From positions 1 through 48,101 of the IMG/VR virus record IMGVR_UViG_3300046457_000044: a stretch of 48,101 nt of DNA. One strand, written 5' to 3'. Positions 3,159 through 48,101 of the stretch are shown here, in pieces (position 1 is the first letter of the stretch; each line of letters begins with the position of its first letter). Below the pieces are notes generated by a model. The model did not search any database, had not been told where the DNA came from, and saw only the letters and a list, made by a program, of their open reading frames with translations. The stretch is from a virus. The position numbers and the translations under genes are program-made.

Positions 3159-4526
3159 ATGTGTGGCATCGTCGGGATAGCAGGTGAGCTGGATGCGAAA
3201 GCAGACAAGGTACTGAAGCATTTGTTGATTTTTGACACTGTACGTGGAGAAGATTCCACTGGTGTTGCCAGTGTTGGCCGCCACAATGAAGATGTTCTCG
3301 TGGCTAAGACGCTTGGTTGTCCGCATGAACTGTTCGAACATCGTTTGTACGGCAAGGCAATTACTGGGCGTCAGAACCGTGTTGTCATCGGCCATAACCG
3401 ATATGCCACATCTGGTGGTGTTAGCAAGGCAACAGCACACCCGTTCGAGTTTGACACGTTGGTAGGAGTCCATAACGGAACCCTGCACAACAAGCATGTG
3501 CTGGACAACGCTGGTGACTACAAGGTGGACTCGGAAAACCTGTATCACCACATTGAGAAGAATGGCTTGGATGCTGCAATCAAAATCATCCGTGGTGCTT
3601 GGGCTCTCGTGTGGTGGGACAAGGAAGATGAAACAATCAACTTCCTGCGTAACAAAGAACGGACGTTGTACTACTGCGTCAACGAAGCAGGCAATCAGTT
3701 GTACTGGGCATCTGAAGCATGGATGCTAGAGATTGCTCTGGGCCGTAACGATATCAAGCACAAGGGAATCCAGATTTTCGAAGAAGATTTCCTTCATTCG
3801 ATTCCTGTAGCTAAGGGCGGAAAGCTTGGCAAGCCAATGCTTCGAAAGATCGTGAACGATCCTGCTCCCGTAGTTGTTCATCAACAGGGGAGGGTATATG
3901 ACAATCGCCACTCTTTTACGAAGGGGACTACTACTGGTTCTAACGGCAGCGAGTCCCCTAAGAACAATGTGGCGAAGCTTGAGAAGCCTGCTAACGCAAA
4001 GATAGACAGCCGTAGCAAGGTTGATGCGGAGTTCATGCAGGCAAAAAAGCTGGTATTGGAAGCCGTAGTGGTGGTGCAGGAAAAGAGTGGAGCAGAGTAC
4101 GTGCTTTGCTTCTGTCCTGATAAGCCCTTCTACGAAATCCGGCTGTACGTTCATAGCAAGCACAAGGTTCAGCAGGATATTGGCTGTGAGTTCGAAGGGG
4201 ATATCAGTGGCTTCGTTCAGACAGAGAGCGAAGGCGTTGGGTATTACAAGGTGAGCCCGCATGGAATCGTCATCACAGCTACAGCAGATGCGAATGCATG
4301 TACGGCTGTTGGCACTGTTGGTGAGTACCTAACCCATGATGGCAAGTACCTCGGCAAGGCAGATTGGGAAGCAGCGTATGGCACCTGTGCCTTTTGTGGG
4401 GACAACATCGAAGCAGATGACATGCTGGACAAGGGCGCACGTCTTACCAAGACTGGTGATGCGCTGTGTGGTGGTTGTATGGAAGACCCTGAAATCAAAC
4501 AGTACGTTAACACGGTGGAAGTCTAA
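3159..4526 (+). CDS. Class II glutamine amidotransferase with C-terminal zinc ribbon
   Basis: The N-terminal ~200 residues are an Ntn-type glutaminase domain like those of PurF, GlmS and AsnB. Seen are MCGIVGIAG (catalytic Cys2 after Met removal), RGEDSTG (29-35), GHNRYAT (78-84), HPF (94-96), GVHNGT (103-108) and WASE (183-186). No phosphoribosyltransferase, SIS or synthetase domain follows. Instead comes a low-complexity linker (about 225-280), an unassigned region, and a four-cysteine zinc ribbon (C410, C413, C437, C440). The domain would release ammonia from glutamine for a separate acceptor enzyme, plausibly one of the neighbouring ligases. The ribosome binding site is AGGA, 11 bases before the ATG. 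Confidence 0.9.
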   Translation: MCGIVGIAGELDAKADKVLKHLLIFDTVRGEDSTGVASVGRHNEDVLVAKTLGCPHELFEHRLYGKAITGRQNRVVIGHNRYATSGGVSKATAHPFEFDTLVGVHNGTLHNKHVLDNAGDYKVDSENLYHHIEKNGLDAAIKIIRGAWALVWWDKEDETINFLRNKERTLYYCVNEAGNQLYWASEAWMLEIALGRNDIKHKGIQIFEEDFLHSIPVAKGGKLGKPMLRKIVNDPAPVVVHQQGRVYDNRHSFTKGTTTGSNGSESPKNNVAKLEKPANAKIDSRSKVDAEFMQAKKLVLEAVVVVQEKSGAEYVLCFCPDKPFYEIRLYVHSKHKVQQDIGCEFEGDISGFVQTESEGVGYYKVSPHGIVITATADANACTAVGTVGEYLTHDGKYLGKADWEAAYGTCAFCGDNIEADDMLDKGARLTKTGDALCGGCMEDPEIKQYVNTVEV

Positions 4527-44505: not shown

Positions 44506-44714
44506 GGCAGTTCATCCTTATCTTGTATTTGTTGTTTGCCTTTCCATTCCCTATACCACACCCAAGCCTTATGCCCAATCAACATAGAAAGATAAAGGGC
44601 TGTAGCTACATTGATGAAGATGGGAAGCATGGCTATTAGATTTGCTCCAGTGACGCCTGCGGCAATAGGAACTGCTACAGATGGACTAGCGGCAATATCT
44701 GTTATTACACTCAT
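44502..44714 (-). CDS. Holin-like membrane protein, 70 aa
   Basis: AGGAGG precedes the ATG. The protein has one or two hydrophobic segments (about 12-27 and 28-50, LIAMLPIFINVATALYLSML) and a charged C-terminus (KGKQQIQDKDELP), the usual design of small phage holins. It is the first gene of the leftward late operon and belongs with the SAR endolysin and spanins. A SAR endolysin needs only small pinholes, so it could be a pinholin. Confidence 0.75.
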   Translation of the reverse strand: MSVITDIAASPSVAVPIAAGVTGANLIAMLPIFINVATALYLSMLIGHKAWVWYREWKGKQQIQDKDELP

Positions 44715-44761
44715 GTAAATCCTCCTCTTTGTTTACATAAGCATTTATCGGCCATAAGACA

Positions 44762-44791
44762 TATTTATTACTTAGGGAGCCATTTGTTTAC
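44762..44791 (-). promoter_or_regulatory. Candidate phage-sigma late promoter, site C (holin side)
   Basis: On the minus strand GTAAA (44791-44787), 19 bases, then TAAATA (44767-44762), 48 bases before the holin ATG. It has the same two boxes and spacing as sites A (36460-36489) and B (30057-30086), with A for C at the last base of the first box. It is well placed to drive the whole leftward late operon. Confidence 0.6.
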
Positions 44792-44936
44792 ATTTCTCTG
44801 AGAAAAATTGAAGGTGGAGTGCACATAGGATCAAGACCCCCAATCCCCCGGGGTGGGGTTTGTGGTAGAGAAAGAACGTCCTGCGGACAGTTGATAATTT
44901 GCATTATGTCAAATTGGAGCTTAAGTGAGTATGCAC

Positions 44937-45257: not shown

Positions 45258-45776
45258 ATGGCAAAGAGCAAAGCAGAATTCTTTTCGATGGGTCAATCTG
45301 ACTTCATTGGTGCGTACAAGAACAACAACAGATATGCCATTGCACGCCGTGAATACTTCTTCGCTCGTGAGTCATGGCAAGCCCTAGCCTACTTTGAAGG
45401 TTATCAAGCTGGCGGGCGTGCGTATTGGGCAGCACTAGGACAGATGTGTGAAGAACTGAAGGCGGGCAAGCCCATAACTGAGTGTGTCAACCTAGAACAG
45501 GTAGATGCAGCTATCGAATCAAACAACGCTATCATCAATCACGCTGCCCCTGTAATGGTTGACGGCAAGATGCCCGTACATGCAACACGTAAGCAATTGC
45601 TAGGCATGTTCAAAGCACGCAAGGTAATGAAGGCCGATTACGTCAATCGTAACAACACGTTGAGCATGCGCCTTGCTGCTAAGAATGCATACGCTGAGCT
45701 ATGCTCTCGTATGCGTTGCGAGCTAGTTAATGGTGCGCGCACTCGTGTCGTGCCGTTCGGATGGGACAAGGTATGA
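45258..45776 (+). CDS. Early hypothetical protein, 172 aa
   Basis: First gene after the 45175 promoter, with AAGGGGC before the ATG. The soluble, helical protein is rich in Ala, Arg and Tyr (YAIARREYFFARESWQALAY, near 26-45) and ends in a basic part. I do not recognise it. Position as first early gene suggests a role in host takeover. It overlaps the next gene by four bases. Confidence 0.75.
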   Translation: MAKSKAEFFSMGQSDFIGAYKNNNRYAIARREYFFARESWQALAYFEGYQAGGRAYWAALGQMCEELKAGKPITECVNLEQVDAAIESNNAIINHAAPVMVDGKMPVHATRKQLLGMFKARKVMKADYVNRNNTLSMRLAAKNAYAELCSRMRCELVNGARTRVVPFGWDKV

Positions 45777-46161: not shown

Positions 46162-46171
46162 GCTATCATCA
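46162..46171 (+). promoter_or_regulatory. Repeated early intergenic motif GCTATCATCA
   Basis: One of a family of sites in gaps before rightward genes: 46162, 47071, 47663 and 9989 exact, 46480 with one change. TATCAT inside the motif resembles a -10 box, but no constant -35 precedes it. Possibly a middle promoter or a regulator site. Confidence 0.45.
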
Positions 46172-46489: not shown

Positions 46490-46531
46490 GCGCATAACAA
46501 TTAAATAAATACGGGGTTGTGTGAGGCCATT

Positions 46532-46700: not shown

Positions 46701-47027
46701 ATGACAATCAAATACAACCGTGCGGCATACATGAACAATGAATGCTCACATGATGTTTATTACGATCAATTCGTGACTGATGGATTGGTTCGTGCTGTTG
46801 GTCGTATTATTGGTGTTGCGCGGATCAAGGCATCTATTGACGAAAGCTTTAACGATATACCATTGCGGGAATGGGATGCACTTTGGCCTATTGTGGAAAG
46901 TTATTTCGGGGCAGCACTCGCAGATAGTAACGCGAGTACATCAGGTGGAGTTAGATCAATCAGCCTCAGTGATACAATATGTGTAGCCAAGGCAGCAGCA
47001 AAGCGAATAGCAAACACCCTGCCCTAA
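46701..47027 (+). CDS. Early hypothetical protein, 108 aa
   Basis: AAGGGG stands before the ATG, one base after the upstream stop. It is helical and soluble, with a middle part DIPLREWDALWPIVESYFGA and a Ser/Ala-rich end. Not recognised. It is followed directly by a strong terminator. Confidence 0.7.
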   Translation: MTIKYNRAAYMNNECSHDVYYDQFVTDGLVRAVGRIIGVARIKASIDESFNDIPLREWDALWPIVESYFGAALADSNASTSGGVRSISLSDTICVAKAAAKRIANTLP

Positions 47028-47029
47028 CC

Positions 47030-47060
47030 AAAGCCCGCACTTAGCGGGCTTTGTCTTTTG
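47030..47060 (+). terminator. Rho-independent terminator after the first early genes
   Basis: AAAGCCCGC and GCGGGCTTT form a nine-base stem with a five-base loop, followed by GTCTTTTG. It ends the early block 45258-47027 and separates it from the H-NS-like gene. Confidence 0.92.
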
Positions 47061-47070
47061 TATAGCATGC

Positions 47071-47080
47071 GCTATCATCA
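47071..47080 (+). promoter_or_regulatory. Repeated early intergenic motif GCTATCATCA before the H-NS-like gene
   Basis: It lies 52 bases before the H-NS-like ATG and just after the terminator at 47030-47060, where a new promoter is needed. TTGTCT (47051-47056) is 16 bases before TATCAT and could serve as a weak -35. Confidence 0.5.
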
Positions 47081-47122: not shown

Positions 47123-47470
47123 ATGGCTGAATCATTGAAGGCACTACTGAAGCAGCAGGAAGAACTAGCGGCAAAGATTGAAGCCGTGAGAGCAGAAGGC
47201 AAAGCCAAGGGCATAGAGCAGATTAAATCCATCATGGATGAACTAGGCATTGGTGCTAGTGACTTGGGATTCTATGATGTAGCTACCCTACCCCATGGCA
47301 AGCAAGGCCCGCGTACATTCAAGCAACGCAAGGCAATGGCACCGATCGAGCCTAAGTATCGTGATCCAGCTACAGGAAACACATGGAGCGGGCGTGGTAA
47401 ACCTCCTCGTTGGTTGCAAGGCAATCGGGACGATTTCCTGATAGGAAAAGACCAAGCAAAAGCGGCATAG
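47123..47470 (+). CDS. H-NS-family nucleoid-associated protein
   Basis: The 115-residue protein has the two-part design of H-NS: an N-terminal coiled-coil oligomerisation region (about 3-40, LKALLKQQEELAAKIEAVRA) and, after a flexible linker, a C-terminal DNA-binding domain with KYRDPATGNTWSGRGKPPRW (78-97). The TWSGRGKxPxW form of the motif is typical of the H-NS family found in beta-proteobacteria (Bv3F-like) and xanthomonads. AGGAG precedes the ATG. It has its own transcription unit between two terminators. It could silence host or rival genes, act as a decoy for host H-NS, or help phage DNA escape silencing. Confidence 0.9.
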   Translation: MAESLKALLKQQEELAAKIEAVRAEGKAKGIEQIKSIMDELGIGASDLGFYDVATLPHGKQGPRTFKQRKAMAPIEPKYRDPATGNTWSGRGKPPRWLQGNRDDFLIGKDQAKAA

Positions 47471-47512: not shown

Positions 47513-47593
47513 ATGGAGAGCTATGTAGTAATAGGCTATGTCGTTGCCCTACTCGTTCTAGGGTTTGCAGGACAGTACGCCGCAGTGTTGTAA
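47513..47593 (+). CDS. Possible membrane peptide, 26 aa
   Basis: The short frame ATG 47513 to TAA 47593 codes for one hydrophobic segment (YVVIGYVVALLVLGFAG). The GGGG upstream is a weak ribosome binding site. It lies between the H-NS-like gene and a terminator, which makes expression likely. Whether it is a true gene is uncertain. Confidence 0.45.
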   Translation: MESYVVIGYVVALLVLGFAGQYAAVL

Positions 47594-47600
47594 ATAGAGA

Positions 47601-47626
47601 GCCCGCCTTGTGCGGGTTTTCTTTTG
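47601..47626 (+). terminator. Rho-independent terminator after the H-NS-like unit
   Basis: CCCGC and GCGGG form a stem with a five-base loop, followed by TTTTCTTTT. It ends the transcript that carries the H-NS-like gene and the mini-membrane peptide. Confidence 0.88.
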
Positions 47627-47735
47627 CCTGTATGTGTGTATATGCACTATGTGTAGCCCACAGCTATCATCATTTGTCAATGTGTAATCCCTACCTGTTA
47701 GGGTTTGTCATATGTAACATACTTGTTTCAAAGTG

Positions 47736-47765
47736 TTGACAACCCCTCATATCGTATGGTGTAAT
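47736..47765 (+). promoter_or_regulatory. Host sigma-70 promoter
   Basis: TTGACA (47736-47741), 18 bases, TGTAAT (47760-47765, five of six consensus bases). An imperfect inverted copy of the operator-like core (GTTTCAAAGTG, 47725-47735) touches its -35. Confidence 0.65.
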
Positions 47766-47813
47766 GGTTGCCGTTGAGACAGCAAGCGCAACGAAGTGTC
47801 AAGTAGATTGTGC

Positions 47814-47843
47814 TTGACACACGGTTACAAAGTGTGCGATACT
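47814..47843 (+). promoter_or_regulatory. Host sigma-70 promoter
   Basis: TTGACA (47814-47819), 18 bases, GATACT (47838-47843, four of six consensus bases). The inverted core GTTACAAAGTG (47824-47834) fills most of the spacer, a classical repressor position. Confidence 0.65.
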
Positions 47844-47945
47844 GCACACACTGATTGATGAACGAGAACTGCGGAACGCGACAGCGTACGATGTGGTAAG
47901 GGATTCAGGCAGTAAGCAGCAAGTGTGCCAGTCGTAACAAAACGC

Positions 47946-47974
47946 TTGACACTTTGTAACGAACGTTTTACAAT
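47946..47974 (+). promoter_or_regulatory. Strong host sigma-70 promoter
   Basis: TTGACA (47946-47951), 17 bases, TACAAT (47969-47974, five of six consensus bases). This is the best promoter seen in the window. GACACTTTGTAAC (47948-47960) overlaps the -35 box and the spacer. Confidence 0.85.
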
Positions 47975-47983
47975 GCTTCACAT

Positions 47984-48076
47984 GATGTAACGGCAACAAG
48001 ATGTAACGATGTAAGGTAGAAGTTACCCGCTCCGCACTGTGTAATAGATTGTGTGAGAGTGTTTCAAGATGTAACG
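47984..48076 (+). repeat. Iteron-like repeats GATGTAACG
   Basis: Exact copies at 47984-47992, 48000-48008 and 48068-48076, plus a variant GATGTAAGG at 48008-48016 that shares its first base with the second copy. An inverted GTTAC is at 48023. They begin ten bases after the -10 box of the 47946 promoter. They could be binding sites of a replication or regulatory protein, or mark an origin. Confidence 0.5.
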
Positions 48077-48101
48077 GGTGATAATTTATCTTATGTTATA
48101 T

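Follow-up and report, generated by a model that had tools for sequence, protein, structure and literature searches.

A full-length H-NS homologue with an extended linker encoded in several types of phage genome

The locus at positions 47123–47470 raises the question of what a phage does with an H-NS of its own. Known phage proteins directed at the H-NS system of the host, such as T7 gp5.5, T4 Arn and LUZ24 gp4, inhibit or remodel H-NS complexes and are not H-NS themselves (available text of PMC8501957), whereas the protein studied here carries its own H-NS DNA-binding domain. A full-length phage H-NS has already been published. Gp43 of EBPR podovirus 1 (EPV1; JF412294) was the first to be reported (Skennerton et al. 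2011, PMC3097231); in a 2020 review it stands as the phage-encoded H-NS homologue, for which experimental evidence is said to be lacking (PMC7074111), and a 2021 article restates the case and describes the antagonists (PMC8501957). In the available text of PMC7074111 and PMC8501957, no full-length phage H-NS other than EPV1 gp43 is mentioned. The gene described here lies in the window, the whole stretch of 48,101 bases that was analysed, which is an IMG/VR virus record classed as linear.

The H-NS gene and its transcription unit

The open reading frame at 47123–47470 (+ strand, stop codon included) begins with ATG and encodes a 115-residue H-NS homologue. The first-pass annotation had described a full-length H-NS of the beta-proteobacterial type and had named a failed profile search for the H-NS DNA-binding domain as its possible refutation; the search finds the domain, and the protein is of the type seen in Burkholderiales. 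PF00816, the C-terminal DNA-binding domain of H-NS, matches residues 77–107 (E 1.6e-12; 47.4 bits against a Pfam cut-off of 25.6), and the unnamed family PHROG 10171 covers residues 1–108 (E 1.8e-23). Among solved structures, the best match is 2l92, which represents a C-terminal H-NS domain (E 1.4e-9), and the annotated TWSGRGKPPRW motif is found in the protein. The N-terminal model PF22470 scores 20.7 bits over residues 2–49, under its Pfam cut-off of 24.5. A chance reading frame or a fragment is ruled out at 47123–47470 by the Pfam domain match, and the full-length H-NS of the window is real and far above chance.

An AlphaFold2 model built from 13 sequences consists of a helix (residues 2–41), a linker modelled at low confidence and a small C-terminal domain, with moderate confidence overall (mean pLDDT 70.3, pTM 0.30). 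The annotated coiled coil is compatible with the single predicted helix, and the model is no proof of one. The linker carries a net charge of +3 over residues 49–77 and forms the low-confidence stretch between the domains, as expected for the flexible basic linker of the H-NS family. The features of the locus are as follows.

47029–47053, + strand: intrinsic terminator upstream of H-NS (fold −18.6 kcal/mol, z −5.4; T-rich tract after the hairpin)
47071–47080, + strand: GCTATCATCA element, 42 nt before the H-NS ATG, with further intergenic copies in this phage group
47110–47114, + strand: Shine-Dalgarno AGGAG, read in the sequence, 8 nt ahead of the H-NS ATG
47126–47245, + strand: N-terminal helix (residues 2–41), presumed dimerization region (AlphaFold2, pLDDT about 70–77; PF22470 below cut-off)
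47267–47350, + strand: extended linker (residues 49–76) with T65-F66 at 47315–47320 (alignment A4; signature count)
47351–47443, + strand: predicted H-NS C-terminal DNA-binding domain (residues 77–107), placed identically by a six-frame search
47596–47622, + strand: intrinsic terminator downstream of H-NS (fold −17.0 kcal/mol, z −5.1; T-rich tract after the hairpin)
47623–48101, + strand: conserved noncoding block adjoining H-NS, with two sigma-70-like sites (47736–47765 and 47946–47974) and TGTAACG repeats

The gene had been annotated as a transcription unit of its own between two terminators, and this description holds: both hairpins fold strongly, and AGGAG precedes the start codon. A terminator pattern scan lists 47029–47053 on the + strand and, at 47596–47622, only a − strand hairpin. 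A hydrophobic 26-residue reading frame at 47513–47593, downstream of the H-NS gene, was ruled out as a member of a conserved H-NS operon; this stretch is absent from the related records G002, G003 and G004.

The noncoding block at 47623–48101 is a neighbour of H-NS whose role in H-NS function is putative. The block possibly serves as a promoter region for early genes and also contains an operator or origin. Its two promoter-like sites are of the TTGACA type, and the TGTAACG repeats occur in both orientations.

A directional element, GCTATCATC(A/G), recurs in the intergenic spaces of the + strand gene cluster, often between a terminator and a gene. It is present at positions 46162, 46480, 47071 and 47663 of the window and in intergenic spaces of the related records G001, G002, G003 and G004. 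With up to one mismatch allowed, 14 matches are found in the window against 3.6 expected, many of which code for Ala-Ile-Ile. Visual inspection of these sites revealed no constant −35 box.

The carrier phage and conservation of the locus

The carrier is a Zobellviridae-like podovirus by its terminase and DNA polymerase, an assignment made here by gene comparison rather than by formal classification. Its terminase shares 73.6% identity with the one encoded in PQ867841, a Zobellviridae record, and its DNA polymerase up to 55% with those of named phages. A family A polymerase, a primase-helicase and a ribonucleotide reductase are encoded on the + strand, and the structural module lies on the − strand. 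The window genome is incomplete. In the related record G003, the sequence continues past the end of the window (window 48101 corresponds to G003 position 3359, and window 421 to G003 7327), so a few kilobases that would connect the two ends of the window are missing from it. The G003 map therefore places H-NS in a cluster of small + strand genes, adjoining the noncoding block ahead of the replication genes. ARAGORN predicts a tRNA-Ile (GAT) shortly past this block, in the part missing from the window, in G003 (L047, 3953–4031) and in G002 (L048, 19618–19696).

H-NS occupies the same locus in G001, G002, G003 and G004, with 100, 85, 83 and 73% identity to the window protein, respectively. The locus is thus retained in five divergent records, window included, whereas several adjacent genes come and go; since H-NS itself was the only route to G001 and G002, this five-of-five count is a biased one rather than a frequency. 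Among relatives found through the polymerase and checked with an anchor gene, G003 and G004 contain H-NS, and the more distant G013 spans the locus without it. By the same anchor gene, G008, G010 and G017 stop short of the locus, and the absence of H-NS from them is uninformative. Across the relative set, H-NS is present in 6 of 21 records, a count that includes shorter records irrespective of whether they span the locus. The upstream reading frames at 45258, 45909 and 46185 are confined to the window and G001, that at 46517 occurs in four records and that at 46701 in three, in a comparison that used G001, G002 and G003 only in part or as fragments.

The H-NS gene is under purifying selection. 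Pairwise dN/dS values are 0.06–0.13 over the gene and fall to 0.02–0.05 for the C-terminal part in the pairs window–G003 and G003–G002. Because of these values and the synteny in divergent relatives, recent capture of a host gene that has no function in the phage is rejected. A host origin was also proposed for the EPV1 H-NS (available text of PMC3097231); for the window gene, such a capture is very improbable, being largely refuted by selection and by its unchanged place in divergent relatives, and no close cellular homologue was found.

Cellular H-NS proteins of Burkholderiales, whether chromosomal or plasmid-borne (e.g. 2l92), have the two-domain plan and the TWSGRG..P.W motif in common with the window protein. 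The nearest of them are only about 40–50% identical to it; their linker is shorter and lacks Thr-Phe, and their tail is usually one residue longer. In three trees (63, 105 and 66 rows) computed from 96–100 columns, with many unresolved forks, the window protein belongs to a supported clade of four that lies inside no cellular H-NS lineage. Duplicates and over-long reading frames were removed before tree building, followed by long-branch rows for the 105-row tree and by most viral and long-branch rows for the 66-row tree. The claim that this protein gives the best clue to the host fails on these results, and its phylogeny was rejected as a strong host indicator. The clue appears to reach the order Burkholderiales only and is a poor one; the host of the carrier is probably a member of that order. 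A polymerase related to that of the window was found in none of 399 Burkholderiales genomes, in a search that had no positive control.

The long-linker form of H-NS

A search with alignment A3 detects H-NS relatives at 64 IMG/VR loci, prophages and possible host flanks included, and H-NS genes are therefore not rare in this collection. In six contigs (L134, L135, L136, L137, L140 and L152; 40–98 kb), the encoded H-NS aligns with that of the window and has an extended linker with an invariant T65-F66. The long-linker form is defined here by the linker Thr-Phe together with the pattern W-x-x-G-x-R-D-x-(Y/F)-L-I; the window protein has both features. Compared with most cellular proteins, the G-x-R-D-x-(Y/F)-L-I tail lacks one residue. 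Both features together are found in 12 of 59 distinct viral sequences and in none of 69 cellular ones; the viral fraction is no prevalence, as one search pattern was itself part of the tail signature, and the cellular set was drawn from searches with the window protein and alignment A4 and predates the locus L261. Neither feature occurs without the other among the 59 viral sequences, and two of the 69 cellular sequences have a Thr/Ser-Phe elsewhere ahead of the domain. The signature patterns miss some members, namely L135 and the second copy in L204.

The carriers of the long-linker form are unrelated phages, including Achromobacter JWF-like phages of about 82 kb and a 44-kb prophage, and their GC content is about 47% (window) and about 60%. 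G799, G800 and G803 agree in the type of their portal and their terminase (PHROGs 3753 and 675), and the terminases of G799 and Achromobacter phage JWF share 63% identity. G805 has a PHROG 15 terminase, a PHROG 21 portal and two tandem H-NS genes, and G807 carries a different portal (PHROG 12). In a collection of annotated phages, neither the window H-NS nor that of L134 has a close match. The tandem pair in L204 (1131–1466 and 1463–1798) lies near the end of the 44-kb prophage contig of an isolate genome.

Cellular genomes were searched with a profile of alignment A4 in draws that overlap in part. The best score is 90 bits for 399 Burkholderiales genomes, 82 bits for 369 genomes from the class, and 106 bits for 378 from the family to which G031 belongs; phage members outside the alignment score 120, 141 and 159 bits, and the second copy of G805 scores 92.7. 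The 106-bit match (G1111:C5:270602-270931) has a Thr-Phe linker. Phage genes lie ∼7 kb away on one side of it, and host metabolic genes flank it on the other. The phage genes on this bacterial contig (L271, 4947–12643, and L272) encode a PhiKZ-type major capsid protein, a divergent DnaB and a PHROG 2943 polymerase. This context places the sole cellular long-linker carrier found at the edge of a phage-like, phiKZ-like element and suggests that G1111:C5 holds an integrated element of this type. As a separate observation, proteins called at 678–827 residues in L190, L191, L192 and L193 end in an H-NS-type DNA-binding domain, and their N-terminal parts appear ParB-like by eye.

A mosaic origin of the window protein is possible, judged from comparison of its two halves. 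The best scores of the N-terminal 48 residues outside the window clade are to L059 and L006, and bootstrap trees on shared columns join the window clade to this pair, which has a similar N-terminal half. For the C-terminal part, the top scores belong to six long-linker phage proteins, narrowly ahead of the rest (161 to 154, next 151). None of 200 bootstrap trees on the shared columns groups the 13 long-linker rows in one clade, and a single long-linker clade is not rejected by an AU test (p 0.296). The source of the window gene may be a phage and not the present host, because its linker and tail are common to the H-NS of other phages. A broader proposal is put forward tentatively, at clearly less than an even chance: an H-NS lineage with a conserved linker would circulate among unrelated Burkholderiales phages (podoviruses, JWF-like phages, 44-kb prophages and phiKZ-like elements) and serve them as a portable module for host takeover, in which the linker motif would set how the protein mixes with or overrides host H-NS.

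The extended linker with the short tail is what appears new in this phage H-NS. EPV1 gp43 is likewise a full-length protein with a helix region and a DNA-binding domain from a betaproteobacterial podovirus, where it lies among the early genes (available text of PMC3097231), but it comes from a different phage type, is about 32% identical over 79% of the query and has neither the Thr-Phe linker nor the GxRDx(Y/F)LI tail. No description of the long-linker form was found in the literature searched, which left most subscription journals outside its range. Within the available text, the only mention of H-NS with Zobellviridae is a citation of the EPV1 article (PMC10386132), the main text of an OM43 Zobellviridae paper contains no H-NS, nucleoid or histone (PMC10580990), and H-NS with Achromobacter phage appears only as a citation (PMC9959647). 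A conserved phage-borne H-NS with a linker signature in several phage types, including relatives of the cultured Achromobacter phage JWF, would make it testable whether phages use H-NS itself, rather than inhibitors, on host silencing and defence.

Possible roles of the phage H-NS

Control of host silencing by phage H-NS homologues, as the first-pass annotation suggested, is plausible on the domain content of the protein. The best explanation, given about an even chance, is a working H-NS paralogue that is made early, joins or replaces host H-NS filaments and keeps AT-rich host genes silent. The protein would be expressed from its own unit, probably early in infection, as its map position suggests. 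Its N-terminal helix would dimerize and mix with host H-NS into hetero-oligomers, and its intact C-terminal domain would bind AT-rich DNA. The joint or replaced filament could then silence AT-rich host genes, presumably defence, prophage and other acquired genes, with possible side effects on the AT-rich promoters of the phage itself. The EPV1 authors put forward the same role for their phage H-NS, as a proposal made on grounds of position and domain (available text of PMC3097231). Sfh and Hfp/H-NSB, encoded by plasmids or islands, are also mobile full-length H-NS homologues; unlike the window gene, they are non-phage genes whose functions were studied in enterobacteria, and a review table gives Sfh and Hfp as interacting with host H-NS (PMC7074111, available text). 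Long-linker carriers exist at both GC contents given above, which makes it less likely that the protein serves solely to shield AT-rich phage DNA.

Since the DNA-binding domain is intact and selected, a working H-NS is preferred over a pure inhibitor. This point bears on the quite unlikely alternative of an antagonist, whose hetero-oligomers with host H-NS would break bridged filaments and free silenced phage genes, an effect that T7 gp5.5 and LUZ24 gp4 achieve by other means. Phage proteins that counter H-NS are known (available text of PMC8501957), a phage at 47% GC would be AT-rich beside a GC-rich Burkholderiales host, and the unusual linker could alter bridging. The known antagonists, however, lack an H-NS DNA-binding domain, and carriers with about 60% GC exist.

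Self-regulation is another reading, considered unlikely, in which H-NS binds the AT-rich promoter regions that flank its locus (44711–44815, ahead of the − strand structural module, and 48041–48101) and times early and late transcription. These regions are two of the 13 AT-rich patches in the window, and the other 11 lie elsewhere. The noncoding block after the gene is better conserved than the gene itself, with 86–89% DNA identity to G003 and G002 against 77–80% for the H-NS stretch, but at 43.6% GC against 47.5% for the genome it is not strongly AT-rich overall. A search of the window found no single-subunit RNA polymerase, which would fit self-regulation, and the control search likewise gave no match. 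The same protein form is found in unrelated phages with other promoters, which speaks against self-regulation.
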